The translations under genes and the position numbers were made by a program. The notes under the pieces were generated by a model. It was not told the origin of the DNA. It made no database searches and worked only from the letters and a program-made list of their open reading frames with translations. A DNA stretch of 64,000 bases from Gelria sp. Kuro-4 (lineage in GTDB: Bacteria; Bacillota; DTU030; DUMP01), in assembly GCF_019668485.1 (NCBI RefSeq), contig NZ_AP024619.1, positions 929,001-993,000 of the forward strand, written 5' to 3'. Position 1 is the stretch's first letter. Each line of letters starts with the position of its first letter. This document shows positions 2,394 through 25,510 of this stretch, one piece after another.

Positions 2394-3068
2394 TTGGCTG
2401 TTTTACCTAGGTTGAAAAACAACGCAGATACTCTGGCGGAGCAAGCTTACGCTATCTTAAAAAAAGCTATTGTAAACAATAAGTTTAAACCACGTGAAAT
2501 CCTCTCTGAGGAAAAGCTTGCTGCTGATCTTGGTATTAGCCGCACTCCAATTAGAGCAGCCTTGTCGCGCCTGGCAATGGAAAAACTCGTTTCTAATATA
2601 CCTGGGCGGGGGTCTATGGTGGCAGATATTTCGTTACAGGATGTGGAAGACCTCTTTGTAGTACGTGAGGCTCTAGAAGGTGTCTCTGCAAAGTTGGCTA
2701 CCAAAAACATTACAGCACAAGAAATGGTACAAATGAAGCATTTTCTACAGCAACAACGAGATTCTTTGGCTAACGCAGACTATCTTCCATTTCTTGAAGC
2801 AGATATGCTGTTTCATGCTGAACTGGCCCGTATATCAAAGAACCGAGAGTTATATGAGATCATCCTGAGCCTTCAAGATCGCATCTTACGTTTTGAGATA
2901 CTATCTAATACTATCCAAAGTAGAGCGGCAAAGGCACTGCGAGAACACAAGGATATCTTGGATGCTTTAGAGCAAGGAGATCCAGCGCTTGTTGAGCAGA
3001 AGATTATTGCCCACATACGGAGTGTTTTGCAAAGTATTAGAGAAGCTGAGGCTAAAAAACTTTCGTAG
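2394..3068 (+). CDS. GntR-family transcriptional regulator (FCD subfamily)
   Basis: A 224-residue regulator. Residues about 10-75 form a GntR winged helix with the hallmark LSEEKLAADLGISRTPIRAAL. Residues about 85-215 form an all-helical FCD ligand domain with FLEADMLFHAELARIS supplying the usual D/H metal ligands. It starts at TTG 2394 with GGAGG at 2381-2385. It is the first gene of the AT-rich block and most likely controls the following carrier/carbamoyltransferase operon, since identical TATACGTATA-type sites precede both units and the gene at 8933. The effector is probably the imported substrate or a 2-hydroxyacid intermediate. Confidence 0.9.
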   Translation: MAVLPRLKNNADTLAEQAYAILKKAIVNNKFKPREILSEEKLAADLGISRTPIRAALSRLAMEKLVSNIPGRGSMVADISLQDVEDLFVVREALEGVSAKLATKNITAQEMVQMKHFLQQQRDSLANADYLPFLEADMLFHAELARISKNRELYEIILSLQDRILRFEILSNTIQSRAAKALREHKDILDALEQGDPALVEQKIIAHIRSVLQSIREAEAKKLS

Positions 3069-3123
3069 AACGAGAAGCCCATTACAAACAATGTGTCTCT
3101 TCACATGTGTATGTGTTTGCTTA

Positions 3124-3169
3124 CTGTATACAAGCTTTTAAAGTTAGCGCGGTTCTTGTATACGTATTC
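3124..3169. promoter_or_regulatory. GntR-type operators, copies 2 and 3
   Basis: Two sites 20 bp apart precede the carrier gene: CTGTATACAAG at 3124-3134 and CTTGTATACGTATTC at 3155-3169. The latter is the exact inverse of the copy before the GntR gene. Paired sites in the region between regulator and carrier fit control of the long operon 3264-8729. Confidence 0.62.
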
Positions 3170-3263
3170 AAGTACAGATGAGAAGAAACAGGGAGGAGGG
3201 GTAAGAGGAAAACATATAGACTGTGGGCAGGAGAATCAGTGGAAAGTAGAAGGGGGCGAGCTT

Positions 3264-4640
3264 GTGAATGATGTCGAGGTGACAAGACCGTCTGTAGCGC
3301 ATGGTAATCAAAATACGGTGTTGTGGAAGTTTTTGTTGACGTCTGGACTTGGCCTGTTTTTCTTCCTATGCCCAGTATACTGGCATGGCAATTGGAACAT
3401 CCCAATTGGTGTTATGTCTGAAAGCTTGGCAAAGCTGCTTAAACCATCATTACCTACCGTAGCTACTATTGCCATGTGGATTACCGCTATTTGCACTACT
3501 CTAGGAACTACGTTTAAGGTAAAACAAATTACAGAAAATGCGTTTCTTAAAGACCTGTTTCAGGTATCTTCGTTTTGGTTCATTATTCGGTGGTTAGGAG
3601 CCATTTTCGCTACCATGACACTATTGCAGGTAGGGCCGGAGGCAATCATCTCCGATGATACCGGTGGTCTAATGCTTTTCAGCTTGCTTGGTATGTTAAT
3701 TGTCTGGTTCTTTGTAGCTTCTTATCTGATGCCACTTCTTACGGAATTTGGAATCATGGATTTCGTCGGCGTGCTGATTCGTGGCTTCATTAAACCTTTG
3801 TTTACTTTGCCAGGGCGTTCCGCACTTGATCTCTTAACTTCTTGGGTCGGTAATTGTAATGTAGGCGTCCAAATCACCCGTTGGCAATATGTAACCGGCT
3901 ATTACACCGCGCGTGAAGCAGCCGTTATTGCAACATGTTTTTCAGCTGTTTCGCTTCCTTTCTGTCTAGTGATAGCTAATACTGCTGGTATTGCAAATGT
4001 TTTTCCTCAGTTTTATTTAGCGACTGCAGTGGCTGGGGTTGTGGCGGCGATTGTCGTGCCACGCATGCCCCCTCTTTCTCGAATCCCTGATGACTACTAT
4101 GGTCCGGTAGGGAAGAGAATCAACGAACAAATTCCTATCGGAATAAGTCGGACGCGATGGGGTTTAGAACAAGCCCTTAAACGTGCAGAACAAAAAAGCA
4201 TTTATCAAGCAATCGTGATCGAGGGTAGCAAAGTGTTTATTGGTATTGTGTTTGGTCTTGTGGCTCAGTCTATGGCGCTCGGTACCCTCGGTACAATGGT
4301 AGTAACCTATACTCCTGTTGTTGGATATTTGTCTACCCCGATGGTTTGGCTCTTGCAGCTTTTCCAGGTACCGGAAGCCGCTGCGGCTGCTCCTGGAACT
4401 ATCATTGGTTTTGCTGATCAGTTCATCCCGGCGGTAGTTGCCAGTACACTCGTAAGCCCAATTGCTAAATTCGTGATAGCTGGTCTGTCTGTGGTTCAGA
4501 TTATCTACATGACCGAGGTAGGTAGTTTTATATTAATGTGTGAGATTCCAGTAAACTTTTCCCATCTTGTTCTTGTCTTTCTAGAAAGAACGTTAGTTTG
4601 CATTCCAGTCCTTGCACTGGCGGCACATCTGGTCTTCTAA
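3264..4640 (+). CDS. YjiH-family membrane transporter (nucleoside-recognition/Gate domain)
   Basis: A 458-residue polytopic membrane protein related to YjiH. Hydrophobic segments are separated by the family-like LLTSWVGNCNVGVQITRWQ and MCEIPVNFSHLVLVF stretches; the Gate motif region is around residues 190-240. The start is taken as GTG 3264 with AGGGGG at 3251-3256, because in-frame sequence further upstream overlaps the operator zone. It heads the operon with carbamoyltransferase, carbamate kinase and amidinohydrolase, so it is the likely importer (or product exporter/antiporter) of that pathway. YjiH proteins have no firmly established substrate, so the role is contextual. Confidence 0.8.
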   Translation: MNDVEVTRPSVAHGNQNTVLWKFLLTSGLGLFFFLCPVYWHGNWNIPIGVMSESLAKLLKPSLPTVATIAMWITAICTTLGTTFKVKQITENAFLKDLFQVSSFWFIIRWLGAIFATMTLLQVGPEAIISDDTGGLMLFSLLGMLIVWFFVASYLMPLLTEFGIMDFVGVLIRGFIKPLFTLPGRSALDLLTSWVGNCNVGVQITRWQYVTGYYTAREAAVIATCFSAVSLPFCLVIANTAGIANVFPQFYLATAVAGVVAAIVVPRMPPLSRIPDDYYGPVGKRINEQIPIGISRTRWGLEQALKRAEQKSIYQAIVIEGSKVFIGIVFGLVAQSMALGTLGTMVVTYTPVVGYLSTPMVWLLQLFQVPEAAAAAPGTIIGFADQFIPAVVASTLVSPIAKFVIAGLSVVQIIYMTEVGSFILMCEIPVNFSHLVLVFLERTLVCIPVLALAAHLVF

Positions 4641-4689: not shown

Positions 4690-5628
4690 ATGAAGAACAA
4701 TTTTAAAGGCCGTGATTTCCTGAGCTTGATGGATTTTACACGGGAAGAAGTCTATGAGCTTTTGGATTTGGCAGTTGAGTTAAAACGACGACATGCAATT
4801 GGAGACGACCCCAAACCTTTACAAGGCCGGACCATAGCCATGATTTTTGAAAAAAACTCCACACGTACTCGCCTTTCTTTTCAGGCGGGAATTGCTCAAC
4901 TGGGTGGTCAAAGCTTCTACATGCGGCCCGATGAAATGCAACTTAACCGCGGGGAGCCTATTAAAGATACCGCAAGGGTCATCGACCGCTATTGTGACGC
5001 TTTGGTCATCCGTACCTTCGGCAAAGAGCGGGTGGAAGAATTCGCACACTATATGAAAAACCCTGTAATAAATGCCCTTACTGACCAAGAGCATCCTTGC
5101 CAGATATTGGCTGACCTAATGACCATCAGGGAGAAAAAGGGACGTCTCGAAGGGCTTAAATTGACCTTTGCTGCTGATCTTTTTAACATGGCCCACTCCC
5201 TGCTTATCGCTTGCCCGCTGATGGGCATAGACATTGCTATTGCCCATCCTGAAGGGCTTAAAGCGGATCCGAAAATAGTTGAGTTTGCCGAAGAAACAGC
5301 GCGGAAGAACGGTACAAAAGTAGTTCTTACAACCGACATGAGTGAGGCTTTGCGCGATGCAGATGTCATTTACGCCAATACCTACCATAGCATGGGCACA
5401 ACCGAAGAAGAACGAAAGCAACGGGAAGCCATCTTCTTTCCATATCGCATTGACGAGGAGAAGGTAAAGGTAGCCAAAGACGATTTTATATTCCTGCATT
5501 GCTTACCCGCCTATCGAGAAGAAGAAATGACCGAATCGATTCTTGAAGGACCGCATTCTGTGGTCTGGGATGAAGCCGAAAACCGTATGCATACCGAAAA
5601 AGCCGTCTTAGCAGCAGTGGTCTATTAG
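4690..5628 (+). CDS. Ornithine-carbamoyltransferase-like carbamoyltransferase
   Basis: A 312-residue aspartate/ornithine carbamoyltransferase superfamily enzyme. The carbamoyl-phosphate site is complete (NSTRTRLSF, EHPCQ, and HCLPA near the C terminus). In a catabolic setting it would cleave a carbamoylated amine with phosphate to give carbamoyl phosphate. The amino-acid side of the pocket is unusual. The typical GDGNN loop reads AADLFN, and the D-x-x-x-SMG motif, whose Asp contacts the alpha-amino group of ornithine in true OTC, reads NTYHSMG. That Asp-to-Asn change suggests the second substrate is not ornithine. The ATG at 4690 has AAGGAGG at 4675-4681. Carbamate kinase follows at once. Confidence 0.9.
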   Translation: MKNNFKGRDFLSLMDFTREEVYELLDLAVELKRRHAIGDDPKPLQGRTIAMIFEKNSTRTRLSFQAGIAQLGGQSFYMRPDEMQLNRGEPIKDTARVIDRYCDALVIRTFGKERVEEFAHYMKNPVINALTDQEHPCQILADLMTIREKKGRLEGLKLTFAADLFNMAHSLLIACPLMGIDIAIAHPEGLKADPKIVEFAEETARKNGTKVVLTTDMSEALRDADVIYANTYHSMGTTEEERKQREAIFFPYRIDEEKVKVAKDDFIFLHCLPAYREEEMTESILEGPHSVVWDEAENRMHTEKAVLAAVVY

Positions 5629-5642
5629 AGGAGAGTTTAACA

Positions 5643-6584
5643 TTGAAACATCGAATCGTAGTTGCTCTGGGTGGTAACGCGATCTTGCGTAAAGGAGAAC
5701 GGGGTACTCTTGAAGAGCAATTAGCAAATATCCAATCTAGCTGTCGGGGATTAGCAGATCTCATAGCATTTGGTTACGAACTGGTAATTACCCATGGTAA
5801 TGGACCCCAAGTAGGCAATATCCTTCTACAAAATGAAATTGCGGCACATACAGTACCACCTATGTCACTAGCAGTATGCGGAGCGGAAAGTCAGGGCTTT
5901 TTAGGGTACCTGTTACAACAGTCATTAAAAAACGAATTGCGGTGGCGCGGTATCGACCGAGATGTTGTAACAGTGGTAACAGAAACAGTGGTGAATACCG
6001 AAGATCAAGCTTTTGCTGCACCAAGTAAACCGGTTGGGCCTTTTTACAGCACGTACGAGGCCGAACGTTTGCGAGAAGAACGAGGTTGGACTCTCAAGGA
6101 AGACTGTGGCAGGGGATGGCGACGGGTAGTCGCCTCCCCGAAACCGATTGACATAGTAGAAAAGAACGCTATTAAGGTGCTTCTTTCATCCGGAAGCGTG
6201 GTAATTTGCTGCGGTGGTGGCGGTGTGCCAGTGGTACAAAAAAAAGATGGTTCGCTAGAGGGTATGGATGCGGTAGTCGACAAGGACTTGGCTGCTTCGA
6301 GGTTAGCTGAAGCTGTTGGCGCTGAACGCTTAATGATTTTAACTGACGTGTCCGCCGTGATGTTGAATTATGGTACACCAAAAGCCAAGGAACTCCATTA
6401 TGTCAGGTCGAGGGACCTGCGGCAATACATTAAAGAAAAGCAATTTGCCGAGGGAAGCATGCTCCCTAAAGTAAAAGCTGCAGTCCAATTTGTTGAGAGG
6501 TGCGGTGGCGAAGCAATAATAGCGGCGCTATCAGAAGCCAGTATTGCCTTGGAAGGAAAGTGTGGTACGCATGTGGTCGCATAA
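5643..6584 (+). CDS. arcC: Carbamate kinase
   Basis: A 313-residue carbamate kinase of the amino-acid-kinase fold, making ATP and carbamate from carbamoyl phosphate and ADP. Signatures are VVALGGNAI at the N terminus, ITHGNGPQVG, GAESQGFLGY, the lid region with VASPKPIDIVE, CCGGGGVPV, DKDLAASRLAE and EGSMLPKVKAA. Length matches the family. It starts at TTG 5643, preceded by GAGGAGAG, 14 bp after the carbamoyltransferase stop. This placement makes the operon a substrate-level phosphorylation route like the arginine deiminase pathway. Confidence 0.96.
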   Translation: MKHRIVVALGGNAILRKGERGTLEEQLANIQSSCRGLADLIAFGYELVITHGNGPQVGNILLQNEIAAHTVPPMSLAVCGAESQGFLGYLLQQSLKNELRWRGIDRDVVTVVTETVVNTEDQAFAAPSKPVGPFYSTYEAERLREERGWTLKEDCGRGWRRVVASPKPIDIVEKNAIKVLLSSGSVVICCGGGGVPVVQKKDGSLEGMDAVVDKDLAASRLAEAVGAERLMILTDVSAVMLNYGTPKAKELHYVRSRDLRQYIKEKQFAEGSMLPKVKAAVQFVERCGGEAIIAALSEASIALEGKCGTHVVA

Positions 6585-6602: not shown

Positions 6603-7451
6603 ATGCCGTTTGTTAATAGTGAATATGGTCCACTTAAGAGGGTTTTGCTTTGCCGACCAGAGTATCTAGATATTACTGTTCCCATCAACGTTATCGCAGC
6701 GAATAACAAAGAGAAAGGGGTAAACGTAGGACAAGCATGCCGCGAGCATGACGAATTCGTTCGAGCTTTTCAAGAATACGGGGTAGAAGTACTATTGGCC
6801 CCCACTAGTAAACGCTATCCGTATGAAGTCAACACCCGGGACCTAGGGGTCACTACGCCCAAGGGTATCATTTTTGGCCGATATCTGCGTGAATTGCATT
6901 GGGGTGAGCACCGATTAGCAGAGCAAGCCTTACATGAAAAGAGAATTCCCATCTTGACACAATTGCCCTTTGGCACTTTTGAAGGTGGTGACTTCATGTA
7001 TGTCGACAAAGACTTTGCCGGCATTGGTATTGGCTGCCGGACCAACATGATCGGTGTGCACTGGCTACAGGCGTTGCTGGCAGATACCGGAATTACATTA
7101 ATGCCAGTGGACTTCGACAAAGATTACCTCCATCTAGATATGATTTGTAATATCATTGCTCCTCAAGTTTGTGTTATCTGCACCGAAGCTGTATCTCCTG
7201 AGTTTTATAAAGAGCTTAAGAAACGCAACTTTACGTTTATCAATGTTTCGCCTTCAGAAGTATTTGACCATGCGTGTAACCTGTTAAGCATTGGCAACAA
7301 CACTATCTTTTCTCATCCAAAAGCGCGAAAGGTCAATGAGCGATTGCGGGCTTTGGGGTTAAACGTTCTAGAACTGCCGCTTATGGAATGCCTAAAAAGC
7401 GGTGGTGGACCACGGTGCATGAGCTTCCCCATCGAGCGAGATGAAACTTAA
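6603..7451 (+). CDS. Amidinohydrolase of the arginine deiminase/DDAH superfamily
   Basis: A 282-residue guanidino-group-modifying enzyme fold. Visible motifs are NTRD (about residue 78), FEGGD (about 126), LHLDMICN holding the catalytic His, and GGGPRCMSFP near the C terminus carrying the nucleophilic Cys. It is shorter than classical arginine deiminase (about 400 residues, with an extra helical insert) and closer to DDAH in size. It should hydrolyse a guanidino compound to the ureido compound plus ammonia (or amine), feeding the carbamoyltransferase. The start ATG 6603 follows AAGGGGGAG. The next gene begins immediately after its stop. Confidence 0.88.
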   Translation: MPFVNSEYGPLKRVLLCRPEYLDITVPINVIAANNKEKGVNVGQACREHDEFVRAFQEYGVEVLLAPTSKRYPYEVNTRDLGVTTPKGIIFGRYLRELHWGEHRLAEQALHEKRIPILTQLPFGTFEGGDFMYVDKDFAGIGIGCRTNMIGVHWLQALLADTGITLMPVDFDKDYLHLDMICNIIAPQVCVICTEAVSPEFYKELKKRNFTFINVSPSEVFDHACNLLSIGNNTIFSHPKARKVNERLRALGLNVLELPLMECLKSGGGPRCMSFPIERDET

Positions 7452-8729
7452 ATGACTGCTGACCTGGAGATGTATTTTCCGGCGCTGCAACAATCTGTTA
7501 TTATTCCCCAACATCAGATTCAATGGATAATAAGGCCCCAAAAGTACTGTCACGTTCGTGACTCCCAGGCTTTAGTAAGGGCAGCCTTGGCTGCGCCGAA
7601 CCCATACGGTCTGGAGCTAACGAACGTGGTACGACGAAAAGAGGTCGAGCGGCGTCGTACAGTGATCGTCATTGACGATGTTACCAGACCTACGCCGGTC
7701 AGGTTGATCCTGCCGGAATTGCTTTCCCAACTGTCTAGTGCCGGAGTTTCATTGGACGACATAATCCTGTTAGTGGCCACCGGGTCGCATGCCCCTGTGG
7801 CCGAACCTCAGCTTGTTGGGAGGATAGGTGCTGATGTATTTGCAGCCGTAAATGTAGTTCAACACAAATCGCGGGAAACTAAGGATTTGGTCAAAGTAGG
7901 GTCGATTGGAGATGGGATGCCCCTTGTATTGAATCAGTACTACATGGAGGCAGATATTAAAATAGCGCTAGGAAATGTAGTCCCTCACGTTAACGTTGGT
8001 TGGGGCGGCGGCTGCAAAGCAATAGTTCCTGGTATCAGTGGTCAGGAGACTATTGACCACCTGCATTTCACTGCGGCTAAACATGTTCCACGGTTTTTGG
8101 GCCAGCTGGATAACCCGATCCGACGGGAAGTGGAAGAAGCCGCCTTGACTACAAGCCTCGATTATATCGTCAACACGGTGGTAGATTTCTCGGGTAATTT
8201 GGTTTCGGTGCACGCAGGTCATCCCTTGGCGGCTCATAAACAAGCCGTGGAAGTGGCACGAACATTAATGTGCCCTCAAGTCAAGGGAACGTGTGATATT
8301 GTAGTAGTCGATGCGTATCCGATGGATCAGGACTTTTGGCAAGCGTCGAAAGCGCTCACCACAGCCACGCGCTTAGTAAAGCCAGGAGGGAAAATTGTAT
8401 TGCTAGCCCGGTGCCCTGAAGGAATCGGGACTGGACACGACGATTTAATGCAAATTGCACGATACACTCCGGCCGAAATGGACATGTTGGTTGAAAAAGG
8501 AGATATCATGCCAACGGCTGAAGTGGCTGTAGCGCGCGAAGTCGCTCAAGACCGGGAGAAGGCGGAGATCCTTATTTGTTCTCGGGGTCTAACGCGGGAA
8601 ATGGTGAAAAGCCTAGGGTTAAGCAAAATAAGTAGTTTGTCTGCCGCGTTATCGTCATCGGCTTTCAGCCGATCGACTATAGGAATAATGTTCCGTGGCG
8701 GTGAGATTGCCCCTGTTGTGGTAGAGTAG
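7452..8729 (+). CDS. LarA-type nickel-pincer 2-hydroxyacid racemase/epimerase
   Basis: A 425-residue LarA-family (DUF2088) protein. Residues known to bind substrate and the nickel-pincer nucleotide in LarA are recognisable: DDVTRPTP, ATGSH, and HVNVGWGGGCKAIVPG followed by ETIDHLH (His, Lys, His). It would racemise a 2-hydroxy acid. The ATG directly abuts the stop of the amidinohydrolase gene, so translation is probably coupled. The cofactor-synthesis genes larB, larC and larE are not in this window. Characterised homologues act on lactate, malate, phenyllactate and sugar acids, so the substrate here is open. Confidence 0.88.
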   Translation: MTADLEMYFPALQQSVIIPQHQIQWIIRPQKYCHVRDSQALVRAALAAPNPYGLELTNVVRRKEVERRRTVIVIDDVTRPTPVRLILPELLSQLSSAGVSLDDIILLVATGSHAPVAEPQLVGRIGADVFAAVNVVQHKSRETKDLVKVGSIGDGMPLVLNQYYMEADIKIALGNVVPHVNVGWGGGCKAIVPGISGQETIDHLHFTAAKHVPRFLGQLDNPIRREVEEAALTTSLDYIVNTVVDFSGNLVSVHAGHPLAAHKQAVEVARTLMCPQVKGTCDIVVVDAYPMDQDFWQASKALTTATRLVKPGGKIVLLARCPEGIGTGHDDLMQIARYTPAEMDMLVEKGDIMPTAEVAVAREVAQDREKAEILICSRGLTREMVKSLGLSKISSLSAALSSSAFSRSTIGIMFRGGEIAPVVVE

Positions 8730-8860: not shown

Positions 8861-8932
8861 ATTCGGATTCCGGCCCAATTCCTACATGGTAGTGGTGCGG
8901 TGCCTGTTACGATACGCTGAGGAGTGTGGAGT

Positions 8933-9913
8933 ATGGAACAGATCGTCTTTCTAGACGATGTGGAGTGTGCCAAGTATCAAGAGCTGCTGGAGCCCCTACA
9001 ACGGTTTGGTGGATTAACGGTCTACACGACGGTGCCAAAGAATAACCGCGAGCTGCTAGAACGTGTCCACGATGCCACCGTTGTCTGCTTTGGACTGTCC
9101 CATTTTACCAAGGAGGTCCTGAGTGCCTGCCCGGATCTTAAACTTCTTTGTTTTCTGGGAACGGGGGTGTGGGACTATGTAGACTTGGAAGCTGCAAACA
9201 AGCTGCGTATTGCTGTCATGAATGTGGCTGACTATGGTACCAACGCTGTGGCCGAGCATGTATTGGCCCTGATGCTAGCTGTTAACCGCCATATCTGCGA
9301 GGCACACCAAAGGGTACTGTGGGGTATTTGGGACCAAAGTGGCTTGGCAGGAGTGGAACTGGCGGGCAGCACGCTGGGGATCGTTGGACTTGGGAGAATT
9401 GGCCGCAGGGTTGCAGAAATTGGGTTACAGTTAGGTATGCGGGTATGCGGTTATGACAATGTGCCACCGCAACAATGGCCCGGCTTCCAGCAAATTGAGT
9501 TCATGTCTCTACGCAATGTTGTAAGAACCGCCGATTACCTTACCATTCATTTGCCTGGACTTCCAGAGACACAGAACGTGGTGAATGCGGACGTACTTAA
9601 ATTGCTAAAAAAGGACGCAGTCGTTATTAACACATCTCGAGGTGAGGTTTTGGATAATGAATTCTTGGCCCATCTCTTGAGAACGGGAAGAATCAGGGGA
9701 GCGGGATTAGACGTCTTCCCTACAGAACCGCCAGGTAACGATAACCCATACCTAGGGTTAACCAACGTGGTGCTTACTCCCCACATCGGCTTTGCCACAA
9801 GAAATGCGATCCAGCGCCTACTGCAAACCGCTGTACAGCAAATAGCAGATTTCCTCGTAGATGAGCAGCGAGTAGTTGTGAATGCCCAGGAAAAAGAATC
9901 TATTAATAATTAA
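8933..9913 (+). CDS. D-isomer-specific 2-hydroxyacid dehydrogenase
   Basis: A 326-residue NAD(P)-dependent dehydrogenase. A catalytic lid domain (about 1-95 and 290-326) surrounds a Rossmann domain with GLGRIGRRVAE. The catalytic Arg is in NTSRGEVLD, the Glu in FPTEPPG and the His in TPHIG. The ATG at 8933 has GAGGAG about 8 bp upstream. It follows the racemase gene after a 200-bp promoter/operator gap, and the aminotransferase starts just after it. The natural reading is that LarA converts an L-hydroxy acid to the D isomer, which this enzyme oxidises to the 2-oxo acid. It is still AT-rich like the upstream block. Confidence 0.92.
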   Translation: MEQIVFLDDVECAKYQELLEPLQRFGGLTVYTTVPKNNRELLERVHDATVVCFGLSHFTKEVLSACPDLKLLCFLGTGVWDYVDLEAANKLRIAVMNVADYGTNAVAEHVLALMLAVNRHICEAHQRVLWGIWDQSGLAGVELAGSTLGIVGLGRIGRRVAEIGLQLGMRVCGYDNVPPQQWPGFQQIEFMSLRNVVRTADYLTIHLPGLPETQNVVNADVLKLLKKDAVVINTSRGEVLDNEFLAHLLRTGRIRGAGLDVFPTEPPGNDNPYLGLTNVVLTPHIGFATRNAIQRLLQTAVQQIADFLVDEQRVVVNAQEKESINN

Positions 9914-9931
9914 TAAATGGAGGAAGAGATA

Positions 9932-11212
9932 ATGTTAACCATGTATGAACGTGCACAAAAGGTTTTCCCACCGGCCGCGGGTCGCAGTACCCAGCTCGGG
10001 GTAGTGCGTGCCGAGGGCGCCTATGTCTATACCGAGGACGGACGCCGGTACCTGGACTTTGCAAGCGGCGTGGCAGTGGCGAACACCGGGCATAGGCACC
10101 CGGCGGTAGTGCACGCGGCGGAGGAGCAGCTCAAGAAGGCCATTCACGTCGGCCATAACGTGGCCTGGTACGAACCGTACGTGACGCTCGGCGAGCGGCT
10201 GGTCGCGGCCACCGGCGGCGACACCATGGTCTACTTCAGCAACAGCGGCGCCGAGGCCAACGAGGGCGCGGTGAAACTGGCCAAGTACGTCACGCGGCGG
10301 CCGGCCGTGATCGCCTTCAAGGGCGCCTTCCACGGGCGTACTCTGGGGACAATTTCCCTTACCACCTCGAACTCCGCCTACCGCAAACACTACGAGGGCC
10401 TGCTTCCCAGCGTCTACTTCGCCGACTACCCCTACTGCTACCGCTGCCCCTTCGGGCAAGAAGCAGGCCAGTGCGACTTTGCCTGCACCCAGCAGTTCAC
10501 GAAGATCTTCAAGCACTTGGTGGATCCGGAAGAGGTGGCGGCCATCATCATGGAACCGGTGGCCGGCGAGGGCGGCTACATCGTTCCGCCGGTCGAGTTC
10601 GTGCGCGCGGTACGGCAGGTGTGCAATGAACATGGGATTAAGCTGATCTTTGACGAAATCCAGACCGGTTTCGGCCGCACGGGGCGCCTCTTTGCCCACG
10701 AACACTTCGGCGTCCGGCCGGACATCATGTCGGTGGCCAAAGGCATCGCTTCCGGCTTCCCCCTGAGTGCCGTCATCGGCAAGCGGGAACTCATGGAAAA
10801 GTGGCCGGCCGGGGCGCACGGCGGCACCTTCGGCGGCAACCCGGTGGCCTGCGCGGCGGCCGTAGCCACCCTGGACCTCCTGCAGGGTGGGCTGGTGGAG
10901 AACGCGCGCGTGCAGGGCGCCTACTTCATGGCGCGCCTTCAAGAGCTCAAGGAGCGTTTCAGTTGCTTGGGCGACCTGCGCGGCCTTGGCCTCATGATCG
11001 GTGCCGAGTTTGTGGGCCCCCACAAGGAGCCGGCTACCGACCTGGTGAGGCACCTGCAGGCGGCCTGCCTGGAACGCGGCCTGATCCTCCTCAACTGCGG
11101 CGCTGACAAGAACGTCATCCGGTTCATCGCACCCCTCATCGTCACAAAAGAACAGATCGATCAAGCTACAGAAATTCTTGGAGAGGCCCTAGCTACTGTG
11201 GCGAGCAGATAA
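9932..11212 (+). CDS. Class III aminotransferase (4-aminobutyrate/ornithine aminotransferase type)
   Basis: A 426-residue PLP enzyme. Family marks are SNSGAEANEGAVKLA, FKGAFHGRT, MEPVAGEGGY, IFDEIQTGFGRTG, the PLP-lysine in SVAKGIASGFPLS, and GGTFGGNPVACAA. It removes a terminal (omega) amino group to give an aldehyde, typically with 2-oxoglutarate or pyruvate as acceptor. The start is taken as ATG 9932 because GGAGG at 9919-9923 follows the alternative ATG 9917. Codon use and GC rise sharply within its first codons compared with the previous gene, marking a composition boundary. With the aldehyde oxidoreductase downstream it could finish breakdown of the amine released by the carbamoyltransferase. 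Confidence 0.9.
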   Translation: MLTMYERAQKVFPPAAGRSTQLGVVRAEGAYVYTEDGRRYLDFASGVAVANTGHRHPAVVHAAEEQLKKAIHVGHNVAWYEPYVTLGERLVAATGGDTMVYFSNSGAEANEGAVKLAKYVTRRPAVIAFKGAFHGRTLGTISLTTSNSAYRKHYEGLLPSVYFADYPYCYRCPFGQEAGQCDFACTQQFTKIFKHLVDPEEVAAIIMEPVAGEGGYIVPPVEFVRAVRQVCNEHGIKLIFDEIQTGFGRTGRLFAHEHFGVRPDIMSVAKGIASGFPLSAVIGKRELMEKWPAGAHGGTFGGNPVACAAAVATLDLLQGGLVENARVQGAYFMARLQELKERFSCLGDLRGLGLMIGAEFVGPHKEPATDLVRHLQAACLERGLILLNCGADKNVIRFIAPLIVTKEQIDQATEILGEALATVASR

Positions 11213-11365
11213 AGCCAAGATCCCTCAAAGGCGGGTTTACGCTTCACCACACACTGCTTACTTATAGATGTTGCCGTGCGGCCAGATGCTCAGTGCCACT
11301 AAGAGGTGTGCTGTGTCTTTCAGAGCGGTCTCGGCCCGAGCAATTCTTGCTTCTGGGGCAGCGGA

Positions 11366-11592
11366 GGACGGGGCGGCATTGTGGACGAAGAGGCGCTGTA
11401 TGCCGTCCTTACCTCCGGGCACCTGGGCGGCTTTAGCGGTGAGGTGATGGAGACGGAGCCGTCGGTGAAGAGTAAGCCCTTCAACCTGCCCAACGTGGTG
11501 GTCACCCCGCACATTGGCGGTAACACCCACGAGGCTCAGCAGCACATTGGCTTAAGGTTGGTACAAGAAGTCAAGAAGATTATCGCACCGAG
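11366..11592 (+). pseudogene. C-terminal remnant of a phosphoglycerate-dehydrogenase-like D-2-hydroxyacid dehydrogenase
   Basis: About 75 codons encode RGGIVDEEALYAVLTSGHLG and later VVVTPHIGGNTHEA, the C-terminal third of a D-2-hydroxyacid dehydrogenase. It is nearly the same as the C terminus of the intact gene at 24575-25510, including at the nucleotide level. The N-terminal two thirds are missing and no start exists. The frame happens to stay open into the next gene, so automatic calls may fuse the two. Likely a duplicated and truncated copy. Confidence 0.82.
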
Positions 11593-11614
11593 AGCGACCC
11601 AGTCGGTTACGCCA

Positions 11615-11642
11615 AGCCCTGCCTCAGCGGCGGGGCTTTTTC
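11615..11642 (+). terminator. Rho-independent terminator
   Basis: AGCCCTGCC (11615-11623) pairs with GGCGGGGCT (11629-11637) around a 5-base loop and is followed by a short T run. It sits just after the dehydrogenase remnant and before the aldehyde oxidoreductase gene. It therefore separates that gene from the upstream unit and argues that the open frame across it is not translated as a fusion. Confidence 0.7.
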
Positions 11643-11800
11643 CCGAGGATCACACGCTGACTAGGTACCAATGCACTGCCGGAAGATGGATCGACAGGCG
11701 TCCGGCGGCTAGAGCCAGAGTGTACCTAGAGGATAAGTGTAAATGGCTGGGTGGTTTAGGCAGGCAACGAGGCTACTTGATTAATAAGGAGGAATTAATC

Positions 11801-13666
11801 ATGGTCGGCGGTTACACCGGCAAGATTCTAAGGGTAAACTTGACAGAGGGTAAAACGTGGACCGAGGATTTGGACCTGGGTGCGGCGCGGAGGTTTGTTG
11901 GGGGGAGCGGCCTCGCTGCCAAGTATCTGTTCGAGGAAACCGGTGCTGGTACTGATCCCCTTGGGCCGGACAACTTGTTGATCTTTATGACGGGTCCCTT
12001 TACGGGTACAATCGTTCCGAATTCGGGCCGGCATGCCGTGGTGGCGCGCTCGCCCCTTACCGGGATCTGGGGCGAGGGGGACGTGGGTGGCACCTGGGGC
12101 GTCATGCTGAAACGAGCCGGGTATGATGGTATCCTCATCAAGGGCAGGGCCGACGATCCGGTGTACCTATGGGTTAACGAAAACGGGGTCGAAATCCGTT
12201 CGGCGCGGCATCTCTGGGGTAAAGACACGTTTGAGACGGCCGAACTGCTCAAGGCGGAAACCCACTCGAAGGCTGTCATAAGCTCCATCGGTCCTGCGGG
12301 CGAAAACCTGGTGAAGCTAGCCGTTGTAATGAGCGATGGGCGCGACGCCCGGGCGGCCGGGCGTGGTGGTCTGGGTGCCGTCATGGGGTCCAAGAACCTT
12401 AAAGCCCTTGCCGTCTATGGAACCAAACGGCTCCCGGTGGCTGACGCCGAAAGCCTTAAGGGGCTCACCAAAGAAATGGCCAGGACCATTGCGGAGCGAA
12501 CCCAGGGTATGGCCCGCTTCGGCACGGCCGGCGGCCTCCAGGCCATGGAGGAGCTGGGCGACCTGCCCATCCGCAACTGGTATCAGGGCAGTTGGCCGGA
12601 AGGAGCAGCTAAGATTGGCGGCCAGCGTATGGCCGAGAGCATTCTGACACGGAATTACCACTGTGGAGCCTGTGTTATCGGTTGCGGCCGGGTAGTCAAG
12701 CTAGGCCGCGGGGAGTACGCCGGAGTCGAACAGGGTGGACCGGAGTACGAAACCCTGGCTTCACTTGGCGCCCTCTGCCTGGTGGATGACCTGGAAGCCG
12801 TAGCCCTGGCCAACGAATACTGCAACCGTTACGGGCTGGACACCATCTCCACCGGCTCTGCCGTCGCTTTTGCCATGGAGTGCTGGGAGCATGGCCTGAT
12901 AACTGCGAAAGATACCGACGGGCTCAAGCTCGAGTGGGGAAGCGCTGAAGCAATGCTGACGCTGGTGCAGGCCATTGCCCGGCGCGAGAGGCTCGGCCGG
13001 CTGTTGGCGGACGGAGTCCGAGCGGCGGCCCAGGCTTTGGGTCCCCGGGCGGAGGAATACGCCATTCATGTCAAGGGCCTGGAATTTCCCGCGCATGACC
13101 CGCGTGCCTATAACAGCGTGGCGGTCGGGTATGCTACCTCGAACAGGGGAGCATGCCACCTGCAGGGCTTCACCCATATGTTCGAGAAGAGCGTCACCAT
13201 GCCCGAGCTCGGCTACGACGAGATCCAGGATCGGTTCGGCGTTGAGGGCAAGGGTGAGCTGACGGCCAAGTGCCAAGACCTTATGTGCCTGATGGACGCA
13301 CTAAAAATGTGCAAGTTCTCTTTGTCGGGCGGGGTGAAGGTCACCCACATGATCAAATGGCTCAATTACGTAACTGGTTGGGATGTTTCGCTACAGGAAT
13401 TCCTCAAGACAGGGGAGCGCATCTTTAACCTAAAGCGCCTGTATAACGTGCGCTGCGGCAGCAGCTGCAAGGACGACACGCTGCCACCTCGCATCCTGAC
13501 TCACAAGCGAGGGAGCGGCGGTGCAGCAGACAACCTGCCGCCCCTAGGCAAAATGCTCAGTGAATACTATGCCTACCGGGGTTGGAGCGAAGAAGGGATC
13601 CCAACGCGTGAAAAACTACGTGAACTCGGCCTTAAAGAGTATGCAATTGAATCTATCCCTTATTAA
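11801..13666 (+). CDS. Aldehyde:ferredoxin oxidoreductase (tungsten bis-pterin)
   Basis: A 621-residue AOR-family protein. The N-terminal domain begins MVGGYTGKILRVNLTEG and carries FMTGPFTGT and ARSPLTGIWGEGDVGG. The [4Fe-4S] cluster ligands are CGACVIGC (about residue 288) with a later Cys in LKMCKFS. It oxidises aldehydes to carboxylates with ferredoxin. ATG 11801 follows AAGGAGG at 11786-11792; upstream in-frame sequence belongs to a pseudogene. Context offers two partners: the aminotransferase that makes an aldehyde, and the ThiF/cysteine-desulfurase pair downstream that may supply sulfur for the pterin cofactor. The aldehyde substrate is not identifiable. Confidence 0.92.
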   Translation: MVGGYTGKILRVNLTEGKTWTEDLDLGAARRFVGGSGLAAKYLFEETGAGTDPLGPDNLLIFMTGPFTGTIVPNSGRHAVVARSPLTGIWGEGDVGGTWGVMLKRAGYDGILIKGRADDPVYLWVNENGVEIRSARHLWGKDTFETAELLKAETHSKAVISSIGPAGENLVKLAVVMSDGRDARAAGRGGLGAVMGSKNLKALAVYGTKRLPVADAESLKGLTKEMARTIAERTQGMARFGTAGGLQAMEELGDLPIRNWYQGSWPEGAAKIGGQRMAESILTRNYHCGACVIGCGRVVKLGRGEYAGVEQGGPEYETLASLGALCLVDDLEAVALANEYCNRYGLDTISTGSAVAFAMECWEHGLITAKDTDGLKLEWGSAEAMLTLVQAIARRERLGRLLADGVRAAAQALGPRAEEYAIHVKGLEFPAHDPRAYNSVAVGYATSNRGACHLQGFTHMFEKSVTMPELGYDEIQDRFGVEGKGELTAKCQDLMCLMDALKMCKFSLSGGVKVTHMIKWLNYVTGWDVSLQEFLKTGERIFNLKRLYNVRCGSSCKDDTLPPRILTHKRGSGGAADNLPPLGKMLSEYYAYRGWSEEGIPTREKLRELGLKEYAIESIPY

Positions 13667-24467: not shown

Positions 24468-24574
24468 AACACCTTGTTCAACGCTTTACTTCTGTACGTG
24501 ATTTGGCAAAAGGGTGGCAGGAAATCGCAGCTCTCTGGCGAATTCATAGGGGATCAATTGTTGGAGGGGGTAGC

Positions 24575-25510
24575 TTGACGGAAATGGAACGGCCACGGGT
24601 GCTCGTCACCGAGCCCATCGATCCGGCGGGCGTTGCCGGCTTTCAGGAATACGCAGAGGTGAAACTGGCGTTTGACGCGGACCGGGCGGAGCTGCTCAAC
24701 ATCGTCGGGGATTACGATGCCCTGGTGGTGCGGGTGAAGCACAAGATCGACCGCGAGGTTATCGACCGCGGCGCGCGCCTTAAGGTCATTGCCATGAACG
24801 GCATCGGGCTGAACCACATCGATGTGAACTACGCCAAAGAAAAAGGGATCGCCGTTCTCAACGTACCGGATGCCTCCAACGACTCGGTGGCGGAGCTCAC
24901 CATCGGTCTGATGCTCAACCTGGCCCGGCGCATCAACCCAGCCTTTGCCTCGGTGCGGGAAGGCCAGTGGAATAAGCACGCCTTTATTGGCCATGAGCTC
25001 AAAGGAAAGACCCTGGGCATCATTGCCCTGGGGAAGATCGGTTCGCGTGTAGCGCACATCGCCCAGGCCATAGGCATGGATGTCATCGCCTTCGATCCTT
25101 TCCTTACGCCGCAGGCGGTGGCCGCCCTCAAGGTGGAGCTGGTCTCCCTACCGGATCTTCTCGGCCGCGCGGATGTGGTGAGCATCCACGCGCCCCTCAC
25201 CAAGGACACGTACCACCTCCTCGGTGCCGAGGAGCTGGCGCAGATGAAGGAAGGCGCCTTCCTGGTGAACGCCGGGCGCGGCGGCATTGTGGACGAAGAA
25301 GCCTTGTATGCGGCCGTCGCCTCCGGGCACCTGGGCGGCTTTGCCGGTGACGTGATGGAGACGGAGCCGCCGGGGAAGAACAAGCTCTTTGGGCTCCCCA
25401 ACGTGGTGGTGACCCCGCACATCGGTGGCAACACCCACGAGGCCCAGCGGCGCATCGGCCTTAGGCTGGCCGAAGAGATCAAGAAGATCATCGTCCCGGG
25501 CGCACGTTGA
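24575..25510 (+). CDS. D-3-phosphoglycerate-dehydrogenase-like 2-hydroxyacid dehydrogenase
   Basis: A 311-residue NAD-dependent dehydrogenase without the regulatory ACT domain of full-length SerA. Visible are MNGIGLNHIDVNYAKEKGI, the Rossmann loop ALGKIGSRVA (first Gly replaced by Ala), the catalytic Arg in NAGRGGIVDEE, the Glu in METEPPG and the His in TPHIGGNTHE. It starts at TTG 24575 with GGAGGG at 24563. The C-terminal third is copied, truncated, at 11366-11592. It may be a serine-pathway enzyme or a catabolic hydroxyacid dehydrogenase; the latter fits the neighbourhood. Confidence 0.9.
   Translation: MTEMERPRVLVTEPIDPAGVAGFQEYAEVKLAFDADRAELLNIVGDYDALVVRVKHKIDREVIDRGARLKVIAMNGIGLNHIDVNYAKEKGIAVLNVPDASNDSVAELTIGLMLNLARRINPAFASVREGQWNKHAFIGHELKGKTLGIIALGKIGSRVAHIAQAIGMDVIAFDPFLTPQAVAALKVELVSLPDLLGRADVVSIHAPLTKDTYHLLGAEELAQMKEGAFLVNAGRGGIVDEEALYAAVASGHLGGFAGDVMETEPPGKNKLFGLPNVVVTPHIGGNTHEAQRRIGLRLAEEIKKIIVPGAR

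Follow-up and report, generated by a model that had tools for sequence, protein, structure and literature searches.

The carbamoyltransferase gene and its cluster

The window, the whole stretch of 64,000 nucleotides of Gelria sp. Kuro-4 DNA that was analysed, carries a cluster that begins with a GntR regulator and a Gate transporter, continues with a carbamoyltransferase, a carbamate kinase, a hydrolase of the ADI/DDAH type and a LarA-like racemase, and then holds three more genes, for a D-2-hydroxyacid dehydrogenase, a class III aminotransferase and an aldehyde oxidoreductase. The features, with the motifs of the carbamoyltransferase, are as follows.

2394..3068, + strand: GntR/FCD regulator (profile/homology match)
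3093..4640, + strand: Gate-domain membrane transporter, an open reading frame whose true start is uncertain (homology)
4690..5628, + strand: carbamoyltransferase of 312 residues like ornithine carbamoyltransferase (OTC), with Asn replacing the ornithine-binding Asp (profile models, alignment, tree)
4852..4872, + strand: K55-N-S-T-R-T-R61, the carboxylate-side Lys and a carbamoyl-phosphate motif, intact (alignment; role of the Lys from PMC3282769, PMC10765591)
4924..4926, + strand: Arg79 of the 80s loop, in 6/6 of the clade described below and outside the residues common there in 105 OTCs (alignment)
5092..5103, + strand: HPCQ, carbamoyl-phosphate motif, intact (alignment)
5170..5187, + strand: AADLFN replacing GDGNN, residues 161-166, with an aromatic at the first Asn and the second Asn kept (alignment)
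5377..5397, + strand: NTYHSMG replacing DxxxSMG, residues 230-236, with Asn230 and His233 (alignment)
5497..5508, + strand: HCLP motif, intact (alignment)
5643..6584, + strand: carbamate kinase (TIGR00746, 414.8 bits, cutoff 358)
6603..7451, + strand: predicted guanidine hydrolase of the arginine-deiminase/DDAH superfamily (E127GGD, H177xD and C272 conserved)
7452..8729, + strand: LarA-like nickel-dependent 2-hydroxyacid racemase, present only in the window's cluster (profile match)
8924..9913, + strand: D-2-hydroxyacid dehydrogenase (profile/homology match)
9917..11212, + strand: class III aminotransferase, a relative of GABA transaminase (420 bits with TIGR00700, under its cutoff of 506.65)
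11306..13666, + strand: aldehyde ferredoxin oxidoreductase-like protein whose own start is near 11762 (named by sequence resemblance)

The carbamoyltransferase frame opens with an ATG at 4690, and a Shine-Dalgarno-like AAGGAGG lies close upstream. A sequencing error or a pseudogene is ruled out, since the frame is open, the catalytic motifs are all kept and the feature recurs in six genomes. With an AlphaFold2 model of the protein (mean pLDDT 78.7, pTM 0.77), the best Foldseek match is 1a1s (E 1e-30, TM 0.88), which supports the OTC fold only. The guanidine hydrolase falls below the cutoff of every named NCBIfam family. It does not qualify as an ArcA-type arginine deiminase, scoring 74.7 bits with TIGR01078, for which the cutoff is 489; Glu127-Gly-Gly-Asp130, His177, Asp179 and Cys272 are kept in all six of the aligned sequences.

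Several further observations concern the neighbouring genes. The LarA-like protein (7452-8729) contains an unusual stretch, PHVNVGWGGGCKAIVPG, and matches no named LarA subfamily above cutoff. Among solved structures, the aminotransferase is most like an archaeal protein whose deposition names it a hypothetical 4-aminobutyrate aminotransferase. We took Tyr85 of ornithine aminotransferase as a candidate marker for aminotransferase substrate, and dropped this test: the archaeal protein shares the aliphatic residue that the window enzyme has there, and ornithine may be a substrate of that protein too. The 5′ part of the aldehyde oxidoreductase frame (11306-11700) resembles the C-terminus of 2-hydroxyacid dehydrogenases and is close to that of an intact gene at 24503-25510, which suggests a truncated copy. 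Upstream of the cluster, positions 107-1640 encode a dehydrogenase of the malate/sulfolactate/ureidoglycolate type, and an overlapping frame at 1230-1640 looks like a truncated GntR/FCD regulator.

Family assignment and the altered ornithine site

Two NCBIfam OTC models match the window protein above cutoff, at 394.7 bits (cutoff 306) and 384.3 bits (cutoff 280.85). Among the traits of OTCs, it has the SxRT, HPxQ and HxLP motifs and the Lys of FxKxSxRT; in place of DxxxSMG, which belongs to the definition of the family (PMC4581275), it has NTYHSMG. Other carbamoyltransferases were ruled out: putrescine carbamoyltransferase by TIGR04384 (281.7 versus a cutoff of 500), Lys55, the SMG loop and the length of 312 residues; YgeW by TIGR03316 (81 versus 500); the knotted N-acetylornithine carbamoyltransferase by PRK04523 (174 versus 288); and the diaminopropionate and diaminobutyrate enzymes (DPTCase/DBTCase) by Asn230 and HCLP, where these have Thr/Ser and HDLP (PMC4581275).

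The motifs were read in an alignment to the OTCs of Pyrococcus furiosus and Gloeobacter, the best solved relatives. The DVWASMG/DVWTSMG of these enzymes corresponds to NTYHSMG, and VGDGNN becomes AADLFN, with three substitutions, Gly162Ala, Gly164Leu and, at the first Asn, Asn165Phe, while Asp163 and the second Asn (166, an ornithine ligand) are unchanged. The original prediction had read the two OTC loops, DxxxSMG and GDGNN, in just this way, and the alignment bears it out, adding that two residues of the second loop are kept. Its statement that the carbamoyl-phosphate motifs are intact holds as well: STRTR, HPCQ, HCLP, Arg108 and Arg299 are all present.

The roles of the changed residues are known from other OTCs. 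Asp231 of the Escherichia coli enzyme binds the α-amino group of ornithine, and D231A lowers kcat/KM for ornithine 580-fold (PMC7004355). In Arabidopsis OTC, N232, D293 and S297 bond the α-amine, and the carboxylate is held by the equivalents of Asn166, the Met235 backbone and, via water, Lys55 (PMC10765591). The three α-amine contacts correspond to Asn166, residue 230 and Ser234 of the window protein. D263N, a known human mutation of OTC, is among those modelled in PMC6098936. Since published OTC structures assign these roles, the window protein, judged by its sequence, keeps the carboxylate-binding set and has lost the ammonium-binding charge.

The protein thus resembles OTC (ArgF/ArcB, EC 2.1.3.3) in fold, in an identity of about 48-54% to the best OTCs, and in STRTR/HPCQ/HCLP, Lys55, Asn166 and SMG. 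It differs in the Asn for the α-ammonium Asp, the His before SMG, Arg79, the aromatic and aliphatic residues inside the GDGNN loop, and in forming a separate clade with its relatives. Putrescine carbamoyltransferase is similar in being catabolic, as predicted here, in partnering a deiminase and carbamate kinase, and in having dropped one ornithine contact. That enzyme has Gln for Lys two residues before STRT, a (Y/W)(G/W)(V/L/I) loop and a C-terminal extension of ~20 residues (PMC3282769). In that enzyme it is the carboxylate contacts that are given up, with the Gln for Lys, the YGLY loop and an extra C-terminal helix, and the Asp is retained; the window clade does the reverse. In DPTCase/DBTCase the Asp of the DxxxSMG loop is also replaced, but by Thr/Ser accompanied by HDLP, as against Asn with HCLP in an apparently catabolic cluster.

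A small clade with a fixed Asn

A peptide-pattern scan of genome contigs, in which the best 80 loci were examined, some patterns being common, found the motif in at least 2 of the 399 genomes of the window's phylum. A third pattern match, in G237, reads NTCHCMG and was set aside as chance. Profile searches of 345 and 348 genomes from other or overlapping groups gave two matches each, one of them G039 again. Altogether five more proteins have the feature. One, L024, comes from genome G039, which belongs to the window's phylum; the others are L027 (G399, a Deltaproteobacteria MAG), L028 (G400, a Symbiobacterium MAG), L123 (G402) and L127 (G423). This carbamoyltransferase family is small and rare, and its six genomes belong to two or more bacterial phyla.

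In a maximum-likelihood tree the six Asn proteins form one clade (support 100/99), whose joining point to the OTC lineages is left unsettled; the window protein is the first branch inside it and its most divergent member. Position 230 is Asn in 6/6 clade members, Asp in 105/105 OTCs of the DxxxSMG type and Lys in 7/7 members of a third group. His233, Arg79 and an aromatic residue at 165 are likewise fixed (6/6) and essentially absent from the 105 OTCs, Leu, Ile or Val at 164 is specific to the clade as well, and Lys55, Asn166, Ser234, Met235, Cys271 and Arg299 are invariant within it. These counts strengthen the claim that the window protein lacks the ornithine-binding Asp and is not an ordinary OTC. 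It is not nested deeply among verified OTCs that carry its Asn but belongs to a clade of its own, and none of the 105 OTCs has the Asn. Ordinary OTC function thus appears unlikely for it. A separate canonical OTC of the DxxxSMG type is present in the window genome (G000), G039, G400 and G402.

The window protein stands apart from its five relatives at three positions, having Ala274 (after HCLP) and Ile139 (after HPCQ), both in the pocket motifs, and Ala162, where they have Gly; therefore, its own substrate may differ from that of its relatives.

The third carbamoyltransferase group (L129, L130, L133-L136 and L140, from G060, G058, G015, G026, G025, G039 and G053) consists of proteins of ~330 residues. 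They have Lys at the Asp position (PKNWG/AKSWG), their STRTR is preceded by FFEQ/FFD, and they carry an insert that contains proline. Its five members placed in the tree form one clade (100/99).

Gene surroundings in the relatives

Carbamate kinase and the guanidine hydrolase are clustered with the carbamoyltransferase in the window, G039, G399 and G402. The order in G402 is aminotransferase, aldehyde oxidoreductase, PucR-like regulator, carbamoyltransferase, carbamate kinase, hydrolase and Gate transporter; in G399, aminotransferase, carbamoyltransferase, carbamate kinase, an aspartate-carbamoyltransferase-like paralogue and hydrolase; and in G039, PucR-like regulator, sodium/solute symporter, carbamoyltransferase, carbamate kinase, another transporter and hydrolase. 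The short contig of G400 has carbamoyltransferase, aminotransferase and aldehyde oxidoreductase. In G423 the gene lies apart from carbamate kinase, and a weak hydrolase relative (29%) is about 18 kb off. The hydrolase family occurs in 6/6 clade-bearing genomes and is absent from the close genomes G401, G001 and G002, themselves without the clade.

An aldehyde oxidoreductase homologue belongs to the clusters of the window, G400 and G402, and a Gate transporter, besides its place in the G402 locus, adjoins a paralogous hydrolase in G400. With TIGR00700, the GABA-transaminase equivalog (cutoff 506.65), the aminotransferase adjoining the gene in G399 reaches 554.5 bits and that in G400 reaches 561.3 bits, and each is the sole one above this cutoff found in its own genome. 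The aminotransferase beside the G402 gene is of another subgroup, and none adjoins the gene in G039 or G423.

Some further genes were noted at these loci. The second carbamoyltransferase of the G399 cluster (L027:6470-7474) is nearest to aspartate carbamoyltransferase (261 bits, cutoff 237) and has SIRTMFSF replacing STRTR; downstream of that cluster, L027:12877-13962 resembles 2,4-diaminopentanoate dehydrogenase (324.7 bits, cutoff 400). The paralogous guanidine hydrolase of G400 (L122:9379-10248) is in a different cluster with no carbamoyltransferase nearby, together with sarcosine-oxidase-like subunits, an aldehyde oxidoreductase, a D-2-hydroxyacid dehydrogenase, the Gate transporter and a PucR-like regulator.

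What is the substrate?

Because the Asn is fixed in the clade, the carboxylate ligands are kept, a separate OTC is present and the hydrolase co-occurs, the substrate would be an ω-amino carboxylate without an α-ammonium group. We propose, with a probability of about 0.5, a catabolic carbamoyltransferase in an ATP-yielding, arginine-deiminase-like route for a guanidino acid lacking the α-ammonium; both the substrates and the direction of flux are what we infer. A guanidino acid imported by the Gate transporter would be converted by the ADI/DDAH-type hydrolase to an ω-ureido acid and ammonia. The carbamoyltransferase would phosphorolyse the ureido acid to an ω-amino acid and carbamoyl phosphate, the carbamate kinase step would yield ATP, and the ω-amino acid would be oxidised by the class III aminotransferase and the aldehyde oxidoreductase. 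In the active site, the OTC carboxylate clamp (Lys55, Asn166, Met235 backbone) would be kept, the neutral Asn would replace the Asp that pairs with the α-ammonium, and the aromatic side chain would fill the pocket.

For the clade, our best single guess is 4-guanidinobutyrate, giving 4-ureidobutyrate and then GABA. The GABA-transaminase-like neighbours and the aldehyde oxidoreductase suggest a path from GABA through succinate semialdehyde to succinate, hence 4-guanidinobutyrate and 4-ureidobutyrate upstream. Against this, LarA and the D-hydroxyacid dehydrogenase of the window operon would have no role in such a route, and the window aminotransferase, at 420 bits, is under the GABA-transaminase cutoff. 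GABA also has one carbon less than ornithine, which would require a shifted binding position for its carboxylate. The arginine and agmatine deiminase pathways likewise combine a deiminase-type hydrolase, a carbamoyltransferase and carbamate kinase; here, by contrast, the hydrolase is DDAH-sized and below the ArcA cutoff, and genes for GABA-transaminase-like and aldehyde oxidoreductase proteins are attached. A search of the open-licence literature turned up no description of guanidinobutyrate or argininic acid being used by way of a deiminase and a carbamoyltransferase, and a 2015 review of the family regarded catabolic carbamoyltransferases for other ureido acids as still to be proven (PMC4581275).

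The alternative that survives best, though it is rather unlikely, starts from 2-hydroxy-5-guanidinovalerate (argininic acid), which would give 2-hydroxy-5-ureidovalerate and then 5-amino-2-hydroxyvalerate and carbamoyl phosphate; LarA and the D-2-hydroxyacid dehydrogenase would act on the hydroxyacid. The chain length is identical to that of ornithine, and Asn is able to hydrogen-bond a hydroxyl. The start codon of LarA directly follows the stop codon of the hydrolase, with no gap, so the idea has operon support in the window, where the dehydrogenase and aminotransferase come next on the same strand; the divergence of the window protein within its clade and the D-2-hydroxyacid dehydrogenase near the L122 hydrolase are also in its favour. 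However, neither LarA nor a D-2-hydroxyacid dehydrogenase is beside the gene in any of the five relatives, no LarA homologue was detected in the G039 and G400 genomes, and the best match of the window LarA in other genomes is < 40% identical. Such genes are common in the window genome, which encodes seven LarA homologues. The adjacent aminotransferases of G399 and G400 point instead to GABA, and a search of the open-licence literature found no known pathway.

Since LarA and the dehydrogenase adjoin no relative's gene and LarA is undetected in two of the genomes, the Asn is not tied to hydroxyacid metabolism clade-wide. The original prediction had held that Asn would suit a hydroxyl replacing the ammonium, in agreement with the neighbouring hydroxyacid enzymes. 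A neutral Asn does fit a substrate without an α-ammonium, but a GABA-type acid fits equally, and the appeal to the neighbours is not supported, as the Asn is equally fixed in five relatives without such an adjoining enzyme. The hydroxy reading is thus weakened, yet for the window protein itself it keeps some probability, since LarA directly follows the hydrolase there.

It is doubtful that the substrate is another ω-amino acid without α-ammonium, such as 5-aminovalerate or β-alanine, or a D- or N-substituted (opine-like) ornithine. 5-Aminovalerate is ornithine minus its α-amino group, with the same geometry, and subunits resembling sarcosine/opine oxidases are encoded near the G423 gene and near the paralogous G400 hydrolase; but oxidase genes are missing from the remaining clusters, and nothing points specifically to any of these compounds.

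Least probable is a second, catabolic OTC still acting on ornithine and citrulline, with the Asn tolerated, in an arginine deiminase pathway with an unusual deiminase: the OTC model scores, an arc-like order of carbamoyltransferase, carbamate kinase and deiminase, the retention of Ser234, Met235 and Asn166, and the lack of any other detected deiminase of the hydrolase's family in the window genome would agree with it, but the effect of D231A, the listing of D263N among human OTC mutations, the linked fixed changes at 79, 164, 165 and 233, which look like a new specificity, and the hydrolase score far below the ArcA cutoff all argue against it.

Implications

We return to a guanidino-acid fermentation, from 4-guanidinobutyrate or, in the window lineage, from a 2-hydroxy guanidino acid such as argininic acid, together with an Asp-to-Asn specificity switch, and put the chance that this is correct at about one half. 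If so, ATP would be gained by carbamate kinase working with a deiminase-type hydrolase and a carbamoyltransferase dedicated to a substrate other than ornithine, a so far undescribed route that would parallel the arginine and agmatine deiminase pathways. The conserved gene set narrows the substrates to a few compounds, purchasable or easily made, and the clade is a compact, testable candidate for a catabolic carbamoyltransferase of another ureido acid, with a charge-removing swap on the side of the substrate opposite to that changed in putrescine carbamoyltransferase. Because OTC models score well above cutoff, the curated NCBI models would name the protein ornithine carbamoyltransferase, and a distinct activity may be hidden behind the standard name.
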